Assembly: GCF_017068395.1 (NCBI RefSeq)
Contig: NZ_CP070619.1
Location: forward strand, 4,278,001 to 4,342,000
DNA from: Rhodococcus pseudokoreensis
GTDB lineage: Bacteria > Actinomycetota > Actinomycetes > Mycobacteriales > Mycobacteriaceae
Length of the DNA: 64,000 nucleotides
Reading direction: 5' to 3'
The notes under the pieces are model-generated. The model ran no database searches and was not told where the DNA came from. It saw only the letters and a list, made by a program, of their open reading frames with translations. The position numbers were made by a program, and so were the translations under genes. Shown here piece by piece: positions 53,410 through 57,583 of the stretch (position 1 is the first letter of the stretch; each line of letters opens with the position of its first letter).

Positions 53410-54594
53410 TCAGCCCGGCAGACGCACCGGCATCAGCAGGTACGTGTACGCGCTCTCCGGTGCCGCGAAGTTGCCGGAATCGTCGGGCTCGATCTCTTCT
53501 TCGGTGGCCGGACGCAGCACCGCGGGGCGGCTGGGGGTCGTGAAGCCGAACAGCACCTGCTCGCTGTGCAGCGAGGACAGCCCGTCGATCAGGTAACCGG
53601 GGTTGAAGGCGATGGTGAGCGGCTCGCCCTGGAACATCGCGTTCAAGCCTTCCTCGGCGCGACCGGCATCGTCGCCGCCGGCGGAGAGCAGCAGCCCCTC
53701 GGTGGAGAACTGCAGGCGGACCTGTGCACCGCGCTCGGCGACGAGGGCGACACGCTTGATGGCCTCGACGAGCGGAGCGATCTCCACGGTGGCCAGCGCG
53801 GTGTGCTCGGACGGCAGCAGCTGCCGGAACTTCGGGAACTCGGCGTCCAGCAGTCGGGTGGTGGTGCGACGGCCGTCGTTGACGATGCCGAGAAGGCCGT
53901 CGTTTCCGACCGCGGAACCCGAACCGAGAGCCAGCTCGACCGGCGAAGTGGCATCTCCCGCAAGCGTTTTCGCCGATTCGGAGAGCGTCTTCGCCGGGAT
54001 GAGCACGGCCGCGGTGGTGTCCGGGTTCGCCGGCGACCACTCGAGTTCGCGAACCGCGAGACGGAACCGGTCGGTGGCCGCGAGCACGATCGCGTTGCGT
54101 TCGATCTCGACCCGGATGCCGGTGAGCATCGGCAGGGTGTCGTCCTTGCCCGCCGCGACAGCCACCTGACTGATCGCCTCGGAGAACAGGTCCGCGGGAA
54201 TCGAGCCGGTCTGCTGCGGCAATTGCGGAAGCTGGGGATAGTCCTCGACCGGCATGGTGGGCAGGGAGAACTTGGCGCTTCCGCAGGTGATCAGCACGCG
54301 GGTGCCCTCGAGTGTCACGTCGACGGGCTTGTTGGGGAGCGACTTCGTGATGTCGGCGAGAAGCTTGCCCGAGACCAGGACCTGACCGACGCTACCGACC
54401 TCGGCCCCCACCCTGACCTGGGCCGACACCTCGTAGTCGAATCCGGAAACCGTCAACCCTTGCTCGGTCGCGTCCAGGAGAACTCCGCCGAGGACGGGGA
54501 CAGGAGGCCGCGACGGCAGACTGCGAGCGACCCATGCCACTGAATCAGCGAATTCTTCCCGGGAGACACGAAACTTCAGGCTTCCAAGCTCCAT
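53410..54594 (-). CDS. dnaN: DNA polymerase III sliding clamp (beta subunit)
   Basis: A 394-residue clamp made of three similar domains, forming a ring dimer round DNA. It starts [19 protein letters not shown] and has the usual [12 protein letters not shown] and the C-terminal [12 protein letters not shown] that shapes the peptide-binding pocket. ATG 54594 is the family start with GAGAGGA about 11 bases upstream. It begins the dnaN-gnd-recF-dciA unit leading away from oriC. Confidence 0.97.
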
Positions 54595-54777
54595 CGCCGG
54601 GTTGTTCCTCTCGGTAGGCACGGTTGTTCGCCACGGTCGGGCCGTGACCACAGCACTGCAGTCTTTCACAGAGCGGCGATGCATAACCGTATGCCCTCGA
54701 GGACGAACTTGAAAGCGGAACGCTTCCGTCCTCGAGTCTCAGGCGGAGGCCTGTGAACGGACGCGATCCCCAACCCT

Positions 54778-54821
54778 GTTTTCAAAGAGTTTTCTATAAG
54801 AATTAATGAGAAGTACTATTA
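54778..54821. other. AT-rich stretch, candidate DNA unwinding element
   Basis: The run from GTTTTCAAAGAG through TTTTCTATAAGAATTAATG to AGTACTATTA is by far the most AT-rich part of the oriC region, directly next to the first DnaA-box-like sites. Confidence 0.6.
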
Positions 54822-54835
54822 GGTCCTGTGGAATC

Positions 54836-54844
54836 TGTGGACGA
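54836..54844 (-). promoter_or_regulatory. DnaA box (8 of 9)
   Basis: TGTGGACGA on the plus strand; differs from TGTGGACAA by one base. Confidence 0.55.
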
Positions 54845-54923
54845 ACAGCTGTAGACGCTGGTCCCTCCGCCTACCCGTATGGGGAATTCTCGAGGACAAA
54901 CTCGAGGACCGATTTGCCACCCG

Positions 54924-54932
54924 TGTGGACTA
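54924..54932 (-). promoter_or_regulatory. DnaA box (8 of 9)
   Basis: TGTGGACTA on the plus strand, one base from TGTGGACAA, abutting a CTCGAG hexamer at 54933. Confidence 0.55.
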
Positions 54933-54960
54933 CTCGAGGTTGTTCAAAGTTCTGCACGTT

Positions 54961-54969
54961 CTGTCCACA
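54961..54969 (+). promoter_or_regulatory. DnaA box (8 of 9)
   Basis: CTGTCCACA; one base from TTGTCCACA. Confidence 0.6.
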
Positions 54970-54992
54970 GAGATTCCACCTCATCCCCACAC

Positions 54993-55001
54993 TTATCCAC
55001 A
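54993..55001 (+). promoter_or_regulatory. DnaA box (perfect)
   Basis: TTATCCACA, an exact consensus DnaA box in the middle of the origin region. Confidence 0.85.
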
Positions 55002-55078
55002 GGTGTGCATGCTTTATCCCAGGTCCAGGCGTCGGCGTGTTGCCCCGGTGTGTCGCGCCGGCGGGGGTTCGTGCGGGC

Positions 55079-55156
55079 CTCGAGTAGACCCTCGAGCGGT
55101 ACCTCGAGGACCCGCTCGAGCCCACCCTCGAGGACCGGCTCGAGGAGCCCCTCGAG
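55079..55156. repeat. Seven CTCGAG hexamers at 12-bp period
   Basis: CTCGAG begins at 55079, 55091, 55103, 55115, 55127, 55139 and 55151, each exactly 12 bases after the last, with six variable bases between. The same 12-base step links two more copies at 54889 and 54901, and single copies lie at 54696, 54731 and 54933. Each hexamer is a perfect palindrome. The array sits between the DnaA boxes and the dnaA terminator, so it is iteron-like. Confidence 0.9.
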
Positions 55157-55199
55157 TTGCTCGCGGCGGCGGAGTCGGGCCACAACCCCCGTGAAACGA

Positions 55200-55236
55200 C
55201 CTGTGCCCCCGGTAGCCGAGCTACCAGGGGCACAGG
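55200..55236. terminator. Terminator hairpin after dnaA
   Basis: CCTGTGCCCC and GGTAGC (55200-55216) pair with GCTACC and GGGGCACAGG (55220-55236) with one C/A mismatch. It is 19 bases past the dnaA stop; on the minus strand GTCGTTTCAC follows. Confidence 0.75.
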
Positions 55237-55254
55237 AGAGACGGGGGCGGGCGA

Positions 55255-56844
55255 CTACCTCTTGGAACGCTGCTTGATCCGGGCGGTGAGCTCCTGGACC
55301 TGGTCGTAGACCTTCCGCCGCTCCGTCATCTCCTTGCGAATCTTCTTGTCCGCGTACATGACGGTGGTGTGGTCGCGGCCGAACGTCTGCCCGATCTTGG
55401 GCAGCGACAGATCGGTCAGCTCACGGCACAGGTACATGGAGATCTGGCGGGCCGAAGCCAGCGGACGCGCCTTGCCGGGCCCGCACAGGTCGTCGATCGA
55501 CATGTTGAAGTACTCCGCGGTGACCGCCATGATCGTCGCCGCATTGATCTCGAGACTCGACGAGTCCGGCATCAGGTCACGCAGCACCACCTCGGCGAGC
55601 GTGAGATCCAGGGGTTGCCTGTTCAGGGACGCGAACGCCGTCACACGGATGAGGGCACCCTCGAGTTCCCGGATGTTGCGTTCGATCCGGGAGGCGATCA
55701 ACTCGAGGACGTCGTCGGGCACCTCGAGCCGGTCCATTCGGGCCTTCTTGCTGAGGATGGCGATGCGGGTCTCGAGTTCAGGGGGCTGAACGTCGGTGAT
55801 CAGGCCCCATTCGAACCGGGTACGCAGGCGTTCCTCGAGTGTCGCCAGCTGCTTCGGCGGCCGGTCGGAGGAGACGACGATCTGCTTGTTCGCGTTGTGC
55901 AGGGTGTTGAAGGTGTGGAAGAACTCCTCCTGGATACCTTCCTTGCCCTCGATGAACTGGATGTCGTCCACCAGCAGCACGTCGGTCTCGCGGTAGCGAC
56001 GCTTGAACGCCACCTTGCGGTCGTCACGGAGGCTGTTGATGAAGTCGTTGGTGAATTCCTCGGTGGAGACGTACTTCACGCGCATCCCCGGGAACAGCCG
56101 CTGGGCGTAGTGGCCGGCGGCGTGCAACAGGTGCGTCTTGCCGAGGCCGGACGCACCCCAGATGAACAACGGGTTGTACGCGCGCGCCGGGGCCTCGGCG
56201 ATGGCGACCGCCGCGGCGTGGGCGAACCGGTTGGACGAGCCGATCACGAACGTGTCGAACGTGTACTTCGCGTTGAGGCTGTTTCCGCCCGTCGCCGCAG
56301 GTGCGGGGCCCGCGGGCGGCTTCGTGAAGTACGACGGCCAGGATTCGTGGACGCTGGCGAGGGCCTCGCTGTCGTCGTCCACCTCCTCGAAGTCAGTGGT
56401 GTCCGAGTAGGGCTGGTCTTCGCCGGAGCCGAAGCGGCGCCTGCGGAACGTGCCGGAACTGGTGACGGAAGGTTCGAGGTGGCGAGGGGTGTGGACCACA
56501 GGTTCCGGGTCGGGCCTGCGCTCCCGGCTCGGGGCCTCGGATTCGGGTTCGTCGTCGACCGGGGCGGCGATGCGCACACCGAGACCCTCGACCTGCTCAC
56601 CGAGATGGCGGCCCAGCGCGTGGAGGATCGGCTCACGCAGATCCCGTTCGATCGCTTCCTGCGCGAAGGGTGACGGAACGGACAGGAGCGCGAAGCCCTG
56701 TGCGAGCGTCAGCGGTTTGACGAGCGCCAACCACGCCTTCTGTCCCCTCGTCAACGGCGGCAGATCGCCGCCGGGCGAATCGGATGTGAGGTCGGCGACG
56801 ACGTCGATCCAGATCCGTGCGAGCGCATTCGGATCGTCGTTCAC
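55255..56844 (-). CDS. dnaA: Chromosomal replication initiator DnaA
   Basis: A 529-residue initiator. GTG 56844 has GGGGAGGA upstream. Domain I (residues 1 to about 90), a disordered domain II to about 190, the AAA+ domain III with Walker [14 protein letters not shown], Walker [12 protein letters not shown] and the arginine finger region, and DNA-binding domain IV ending with [14 protein letters not shown]. It is transcribed towards oriC. Two good DnaA boxes lie about 155-175 bases upstream of its start, pointing to autoregulation. Confidence 0.98.
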
Positions 56845-57583
56845 GTGGTTCCTCCCCAGTGTGTTCGCGGACTCGGCGCGTGCGGTGCCGAGTCCAGTGT
56901 CGGTGCCGTCGTCGAGGCGGAAATGGGAGCTTCCCCGACCTGAGGATGGACCCCGTACGGACCTACGAATATGCCATCTGAACTGTGTTTCCACACAATT
57001 ATCCACAGATGTGGACAAACCGCAGACGCCGTTTGTTTGGGCGTTGTGGCACGGCGAGGAGTCCAGATTGAGCGCGCTGACCTGCGCTTATGCATACGAA
57101 ACCTGGATGGGCGGGTTCGGGGACCCGAGAAGTGAAGGGCGTCAGGAACCCTCGTGATGATCCGAAGCGGGACACCATCTGTGCCCTGTGGATGAATTGT
57201 GGTGAATGTGCAGATGAGAACGGTGAAGTCGAGAGCTGGGCACTCGATCAGGGTTCATCGGCGAGACCATGCTATAGACGCTAGCAACAGTGTCGGCAAG
57301 CTCACAGCGGTTTGGCACATTGGAAGTTGGGGTGCAAGCATTTGTCGATCCTCGGCGTGTCGGTCAGCCGATTCGCGGGGGAATCGCAGGTGAGCGAGTT
57401 TGACCTGACCGGGAGTGGTAAGTACTCTCGAACAGTCACCCTGTGGTGAGGTGGCGGTTTCGTGCTGGCTCGAGTCCAGTTTCGAAGTCGTTTCATCCCC
57501 ACCTGTGGATGAACACCTGAGTTTTCGCCAATGTTAGATCCATGACGCCGGGAGGCGTCGATGAACTTCGAGGAGTGTTGACC
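56845..57583. other. dnaA-rpmH intergenic region
   Basis: A 739-base gap without a recognisable gene, containing the divergent promoters of dnaA and rpmH. Two DnaA boxes lie at 56999-57018 and near-matches TGTGGATGA at 57187-57195 and 57504-57512; the last is the right arm of a short dyad (TCATCC / GGATGA, 57494-57512). Short frames on both strands lack ribosome sites and family features. Confidence 0.6.
56999..57018. promoter_or_regulatory. Pair of DnaA boxes upstream of dnaA
   Basis: TTATCCACA (56999-57007) and, inverted, TGTGGACAA (57010-57018), both perfect consensus boxes separated by two bases. Likely sites for DnaA autorepression and possibly part of the origin. Confidence 0.8.

Follow-up and report, generated by a model that had tools for sequence, protein, structure and literature searches.

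Phased CTCGAG sites in the dnaA–dnaN gap of Rhodococcus pseudokoreensis and its relatives, and a candidate methyltransferase that accompanies them

Introduction

The gap between dnaN and dnaA in Rhodococcus pseudokoreensis holds 12 copies of the palindrome CTCGAG, seven of which follow one another in exact 12 bp steps. What maintains such an arrangement in a replication origin? A preliminary description, made from the 64,000-nucleotide stretch analysed here (the window; positions 4,278,001 to 4,342,000 of contig NZ_CP070619.1, assembly GCF_017068395.1), knew of no such element in described mycobacterial or streptomycete origins and proposed the site of an unknown origin-binding factor, a structure that aids unwinding or plasmid-like control.

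The element does have a precedent. Clusters of CTCGAG between dnaA and the polymerase III gene were reported in Nocardiaceae and linked to an orphan CTCGAG methyltransferase by Blow et al. (2016; PMC4752239), who framed them by reference to Dam and CcrM, which exert control through fully and hemi-methylated DNA. The hexamer, the dnaA–dnaN gap, the family and the correlation with an orphan methyltransferase are the same here; the terms spacing, SeqA and Rhodococcus are absent from the main text of that paper. The cluster and its methyltransferase link are therefore already published; new here are the 11/12 bp phase, the register with the DnaA boxes, the pairing of a C5 enzyme with Vsr and the lineages that carry the enzyme without the cluster. 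No report of the phase, the register or a reader of the sites was found in the open-licence literature or by term search in a 2026 review (PMC13076061).

Materials and methods

With dnaN as the query, the gap was extracted from 77 of 80 named relatives (the other three had no dnaA in the stretch) and from 77 of 79 additional genomes, to which were added loci recruited by the array pattern. Spacing was analysed in 31 cluster gaps chosen to represent distinct architectures, with 293 CTCGAG sites, against a null in which sites were jittered by up to 15 bp. A gap was scored as carrying a cluster if it held four or more CTCGAG and showed a spacing of 10–13 or 22–24 bp. The orthologue survey covered 401 genomes, 168 of which match at 1e-40 among the matches listed; an orthologue was a match with E below 1e-180, and genomes outside the matches listed were counted as being without one. 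Five methyltransferase profiles were searched in 26 genomes, 13 with clusters and 13 without.

Results and discussion

The CTCGAG sites and their surroundings

The starts of all 12 hexamers given in the preliminary description are exact (54696, 54731, 54889, 54901 and 54933, then 55079 to 55151 in 12 bp steps), as are its extended copies, the plus strand reading CTCGAGGAC at five sites (54696, 54889, 54901, 55103 and 55127). The location is non-coding, as had been stated: the gap, of 663 bp, is flanked by the reading frames of dnaN and dnaA, both on the minus strand, and holds all 12 sites, in agreement with the clusters of Blow et al. (2016). The expectation of well under one CTCGAG also stands, since a dinucleotide model predicts 0.38 per gap compared with 12.2 observed, the latter figure coming from 12 gaps picked because they carry the array. 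The window as a whole is rich in CTCGAG (82, versus 36 in dinucleotide shuffles). The gap is nevertheless an exception in density, because the sequence flanking it in 27 loci of cluster lineages has CTCGAG at only 1.17 times a fourth-order Markov expectation. The pattern CTCGAG-N6-CTCGAG-N6-CTCGAG occurs at a single locus, oriC, in the 9.87 Mb genome and on no other contig. The features are listed in Table 1.

Table 1. Features of the dnaA–dnaN region in window coordinates
Feature	Position	Strand	Remark
dnaN coding sequence (open frame to 54684)	53410..54591	-	Used as query
Two CTCGAG 35 bp apart, dnaN side	54696..54736		Sequence and relatives' alignment
DnaA box TCGTCCACA, 8/9	54836..54844	-	
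CTCGAG core pair, 12 bp apart, minus strand ggtcCTCGAGtttgtcCTCGAGaa	54889..54906		Present in cluster-bearing Rhodococcus gaps compared
DnaA-like 9-mer TTGTCCTCG, 7/9 to TTGTCCACA	54891..54899	-	Overlaps CTCGAG 54889-54894
DnaA box TAGTCCACA, 8/9	54924..54932	-	Adjoins CTCGAG 54933
CTCGAG directly abutting DnaA box 54924-54932 (minus strand: CTCGAG-N3-TCCACA)	54933..54938		Same in all 10 opacus-like gaps aligned
DnaA box CTGTCCACA, 8/9	54961..54969	+	
DnaA box TTATCCACA, 9/9	54993..55001	+	
Seven-CTCGAG array, exact 12 bp step, six variable bases between	55079..55156		Conserved in opacus-like relatives
dnaA reading frame, whose true start is probably internal	55255..57018	-	Named from sequence; also used as query

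The gap contains other elements. A conserved AT-rich stretch at 54790-54845, reading CCTAATAGTACTTCT on the minus strand, adjoins DnaA boxes; we take it to resemble the DnaA-trio unwinding element. At 54988-55007 the TTATCCACA box spans a short inverted repeat, CACACTTATCCACAGGTGTG, with seven pairs (one of them G–T) and a loop of six; a scan called it terminator-like, shuffles averaging 0.5 calls. The dnaA terminator of the preliminary description is an inverted repeat near 55200-55236; it has no T run, and the terminator scan made no call there. No Rfam family matched within 54000-56000.

Conservation and spacing in relatives

When nine opacus-like gaps were aligned with that of the window, the hexamers were kept and the spacers drifted, the outcome that the preliminary description had set as a check of its reading. 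Identity to the window was 96% in the array hexamers and 100% in the other hexamers, compared with 71% in the array spacers and 86% in the remainder of the gap. The array varies from six to nine copies among opacus-like relatives.

The number of CTCGAG per gap is 10–15 in opacus-like Rhodococcus (two metagenome bins included), 8–10 in Prescottella, 7–9 in the erythropolis group, 16 in R. rhodnii, 8–9 in the CH91 group, 6 in Aldersonia and 4–10 in Nocardia (29 gaps). It falls to 0–2 in fascians-type Rhodococcus, R. oryzae, R. spelaei, Antrihabitans, Williamsia and Tsukamurella, the exceptions among the fascians type being two gaps with four scattered sites (L047 and G036). The core pair has decayed in R. 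fascians, and Antrihabitans retains one of the two sites.

In the 31-gap sample neighbouring sites are 11 or 12 bp apart in 97 cases, whereas 300 jitter trials gave 16.7 such cases on average (standard deviation 3.7, maximum 28). Opacus-like gaps prefer 12 bp; Nocardia, G081 and G175 prefer 11 bp, together with 22 or 23. The combination of kept hexamers, drifting spacers and 11/12 bp steps supports the view, expressed in the preliminary description, that helical phasing is under selection inside oriC. In a scan of 345 genomes of the class, a three-copy match at 11–12 bp turned up in 12 from outside the family. The 13 loci read from these are all situated within open frames 208 codons long or longer, away from dnaA and dnaN, a negative that covers tight arrays only, as the pattern misses looser clusters of the Nocardia type.

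In 27 gaps without CTCGAG clusters we found no convincing replacement palindrome, the best of several hundred patterns having an uncorrected p of 3e-5. Where the array would stand, one Rhodococcoides fascians gap (L031) shows by eye a run of five GATTC/GAATC units spaced at 11 bp, and several relatives show weak enrichment of GAWTC or CGRWYCG; this run may be another motif that occupies that lattice. We note also that a contig titled Acidobacteriaceae BOG_194 (L063), with a dnaN 78% identical to that of the window, is probably a mislabelled bin of the window's family (G207).

Register with the DnaA boxes

The hexamers hold a fixed position relative to the DnaA boxes. CTCGAG-N3-TCCAC is present in 28 of the 31 cluster gaps, with 66 instances, the next most frequent distances being 14 (18 instances) and 15 (16). 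Since TCCAC follows after exactly three bases, hexamer and nine-base DnaA box are immediate neighbours. Of the 404 offsets from CTCGAG to TCCAC[AC] that are no longer than 60 bp, 216 equal 2 modulo 11 and a further 76 equal 1. The vector length of this lattice is 0.68, maximal at period 11 among the nine periods tried, a value inflated by descent, which relates the rows of the lattice, phase and co-occurrence comparisons so that their counts are not independent; with one genome per lineage it is 0.61–0.67. When the sites were shifted rigidly within each lineage, none of 500 trials reached the observed fraction of 0.535, the null maximum being 0.395. The phase lies between 1.2 and 1.9 in seven of eight lineages; Prescottella is about 2 bp out of phase, and in g27 the lattice is weak (vector length 0.36, with 17 of 57 offsets on the residue). 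Among 19 control words the median was 0.35, but pieces of the DnaA box reached 0.59. The DnaA boxes are therefore themselves periodic, which leaves a smaller margin than one would suppose from a uniform expectation.

Within the window, all TCCAC[AC] offsets of up to 60 bp fall on residues 1 or 2 modulo 11. The TCCCCA core at 54880 has offsets on these residues too, but those at 54767 and 54984 do not fit the lattice. The register places CTCGAG at the position nnnTCCTCG of a DnaA 9-mer with a 2 bp gap to the next, for example TTGTCCTCG, the one place in the gap outside the array where a CTCGAG overlaps a 7/9 DnaA-like 9-mer by sequence match. In this 11 bp register nnnTCCTCGAG could be read as a weak DnaA-like 9-mer. 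The preceding TC is common in Nocardia and weak in the opacus group, with a modest asymmetry (53 versus 39 of 87). The bases that follow CTCGAG are G and A on 73% and 70% of sides in Nocardia and on 58% and 34% in the opacus group.

The seven-copy array stands apart from this pattern. No DnaA box is found within 60 bp of it, its step is 12 bp and not 11, and it is not an array of DnaA boxes, none of its units scoring at least 7/9 against TTNTCCACA.

A candidate methyltransferase

The four adenine or N4 methyltransferase families considered as the CTCGAG enzyme (PF07669, PF01555, PF02384 and PF02086) gave no match in the genome of the window at E 0.001. The fifth profile, PF00145, identified an enzyme of about 390 residues in 13 of 13 cluster genomes and eight of the 13 others. 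In the genome of the window its gene is about 567 kb from the array, and a Vsr mismatch endonuclease gene comes after it. In the neighbourhood of the enzyme a Vsr gene is seen in 15 of 21 enzyme-bearing genomes; there is no Vsr in the stretch around the enzyme in the other six, which include one cluster Rhodococcus and one Aldersonia. A Vsr fits a C5 enzyme.

The window's genome has a second PF00145 gene (L177). This gene cannot explain the cluster in all genomes, since in six of the 13 cluster genomes the shared enzyme is the single PF00145 match. Because the four other families are absent from the window's genome and the enzyme co-occurs with the cluster, we assign this dcm-like C5 methyltransferase as the candidate CTCGAG methylase; it may be the enzyme of Blow et al. 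(2016) or another.

The co-occurrence was followed in the 91 genomes whose gap could be read. The orthologue accompanies the cluster in 41, among the matches listed, so that 41 of the 42 cluster genomes carry the C5 orthologue; the one cluster genome without an orthologue among the matches listed is an assembly 66% complete. Neither an orthologue, among the matches listed, nor a cluster is present in 34, of which 28 have no homologue and six a distant one. The remaining 15 of the 56 orthologue genomes, again among the matches listed, have no cluster (seven in g6, four in g16 and one each in g26, g28, g30 and g31). Fisher's test gives p = 5e-12, a value that ignores descent and the recruitment of 14 of the 91 genomes by the array itself. 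Four genomes were left out of the table. G213 and G207 have no dnaA in the stretch, G207 having the orthologue and one CTCGAG in the 944 bp before dnaN; G272 has dnaN at a contig end and G290 was omitted from the dnaN search, and these two, 74–75% complete, have no enzyme among the matches listed. Genus g22 provides a comparison within a genus: in four gaps, with two more genomes of the genus outside the comparison, CTCGAG is missing from those of the three genomes that lack the enzyme, whereas the gap of the sole enzyme-bearing genome has ten, mostly in 11 bp steps.

An altered target-recognition region in the non-cluster lineages finds no support, as no column there separates enzymes with a cluster from those without (21 versus 12 rows); the sole separating column in the enzyme is K/R at alignment column 97. 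By eye, the enzyme tree broadly tracks the species groups. As to a mutational footprint of m5C, CTCGAG is undepleted in the gap flanks, and the small number of near-miss hexamers allows no conclusion. The ratio of observed to expected CTCGAG there, for classes in which enzyme status was partly assigned by clade, is 1.17 with enzyme and cluster (27 loci), 1.12 with enzyme only (13) and 0.97 with neither (eight).

Two side observations concern the enzyme family. In four genomes of genus g23, probably Nocardia (G392, G164, G340 and G305), the methyltransferase frame is recorded with one inner TGA. An Antrihabitans genome (L211) has a second C5 methyltransferase copy, 49% identical, besides the orthologue.

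Proposed mechanism

CTCGAG is kept at about one-turn spacing in a fixed register with the DnaA boxes, and clusters are restricted, among the matches listed, to genomes with one C5 methyltransferase orthologue, with one incomplete exception. We lean slightly towards regarding the hexamers as target sites of a conserved orphan methyltransferase, set into the DnaA-binding lattice of oriC as slots open to methylation in the manner of GATC, Dam and SeqA. The C5 enzyme would methylate CTCGAG, probably to m5C, and the sites would be hemimethylated just after passage of the fork. Hemimethylation would then alter occupancy of the lattice, either through a SeqA-like reader that blocks weak DnaA-like sites or through a change in the binding of DnaA itself, and the origin would thereby fire once per cycle. 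On this view the seven-copy array would be a further platform, next to the DnaA region, on which proteins could bind cooperatively.

In E. coli, weak DnaA sites are clustered 2 bp apart (PMC6070618); several contain or are overlapped by GATC, and once initiation has occurred they are blocked by SeqA bound to the hemimethylated GATC (PMC8488378). Here too palindromic, putatively methylated sites are crowded in oriC, where they would lie in or over weak DnaA-like sites separated by 2 bp, and it is because the geometry is the same in kind that we suggest that methylation of CTCGAG controls access to part of the DnaA lattice. The differences are the hexamer itself, an enzyme that is probably C5 rather than N6, and a seven-copy array away from the DnaA boxes. 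Together with CTCGAG, Blow et al. (2016; PMC4752239) mention the TTAA clusters and orphan methyltransferase of Arthrobacter; this too is an actinobacterial origin rich in the site of an orphan methyltransferase, although the motif is another and the modification m6A.

Could a dedicated protein bind CTCGAG at one-turn spacing whatever its methylation, the methyltransferase link being incidental? This extends the idea of an unknown binding factor, and the strict 11/12 bp phasing with drifting spacers is what it would lead one to expect. So are the 15 genomes with the enzyme but no cluster, among the matches listed, because of which the enzyme alone does not explain the cluster. On the other hand, clusters go with the enzyme even inside genus g22, among the matches listed, the association of clusters with an orphan CTCGAG methyltransferase is published (PMC4752239), and there is no candidate protein; we judge the proposal unlikely. 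A binding factor is still likely, and the two proteins to which the evidence points are DnaA and the methyltransferase. DnaA might itself be the reader, CTCGAG marking low-affinity nnnTCCTCG sites at which methylation directly shifts DnaA binding with no SeqA-like protein. The register, which yields a DnaA-like 9-mer with a 2 bp gap, and TTGTCCTCG in the window speak for this. Yet the TC before CTCGAG is missing from most of the seven-copy array and CTCGAG is stricter than weak DnaA sites need. Moreover, a comparison of DnaA domain IV by eye (12 cluster versus 17 non-cluster rows) revealed no separating residue, Nocardia having three changes in the helix–turn–helix stretch, so that DnaA leaves the cluster-lacking lineages unexplained. 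We regard DnaA as sole reader as quite improbable. The absence of the cluster is better explained by a missing partner or a dispensable system. The sole reader profile searched, SRA (PF02182), matched in none of the 26 genomes, and the control was silent too.

That the array is a hairpin or cruciform aiding unwinding, as the preliminary description also proposed, now has little in its favour. Each hexamer is self-complementary, an RNA fold of the array's minus strand is better than those of dinucleotide shuffles (z -4.05), and with DNA parameters three of 12 arrays (L096, L016 and G175) beat spacer shuffles. With the hexamers fixed and the spacers shuffled, however, nine of the 12, including that of the window, fold no better than chance, and the array is GC-rich and separate from the AT-rich stretch; a structural role seems very improbable. 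Some plasmid iterons and centromere repeats likewise consist of short sites at about 11–12 bp, which suits cooperative binding, and a tandem repeat finder called period 12 with 4.6 copies, in a tract whose copy number varies among the opacus-like relatives. A neutral tandem repeat is contradicted by the conservation and phase results, in that six of twelve bases are constant while the variable half drifts and hexamers outside the array are also invariant in opacus-like relatives. A plasmid-type iteron set, contradicted by the same results, fits poorly with a chromosomal array confined to oriC, in which half of each unit varies and whose flanking genes are dnaA and dnaN. The absence of the triple array from every other contig leaves plasmid-like control unsupported, and we find either of these origins scarcely credible.

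Returning to the methylated lattice, we put forward tentatively, and as rather doubtful in its full form, a specific version in which the C5 methyltransferase and Vsr mark slots of an 11 bp lattice, whose m5C state is read there by DnaA or a filament-forming partner, as an origin clock and an independently evolved counterpart of Dam and SeqA.

Significance

The proposal bears on how initiation is limited to once per cycle in actinobacteria of this group. Given a candidate enzyme, a fixed geometry and the natural absences in genus g22 and among the fascians group, the idea of a methylation-timed origin lends itself to direct tests in harmless Rhodococcus strains. If the proposal is true, it would represent a cytosine-methylation counterpart of Dam and SeqA that evolved on its own.
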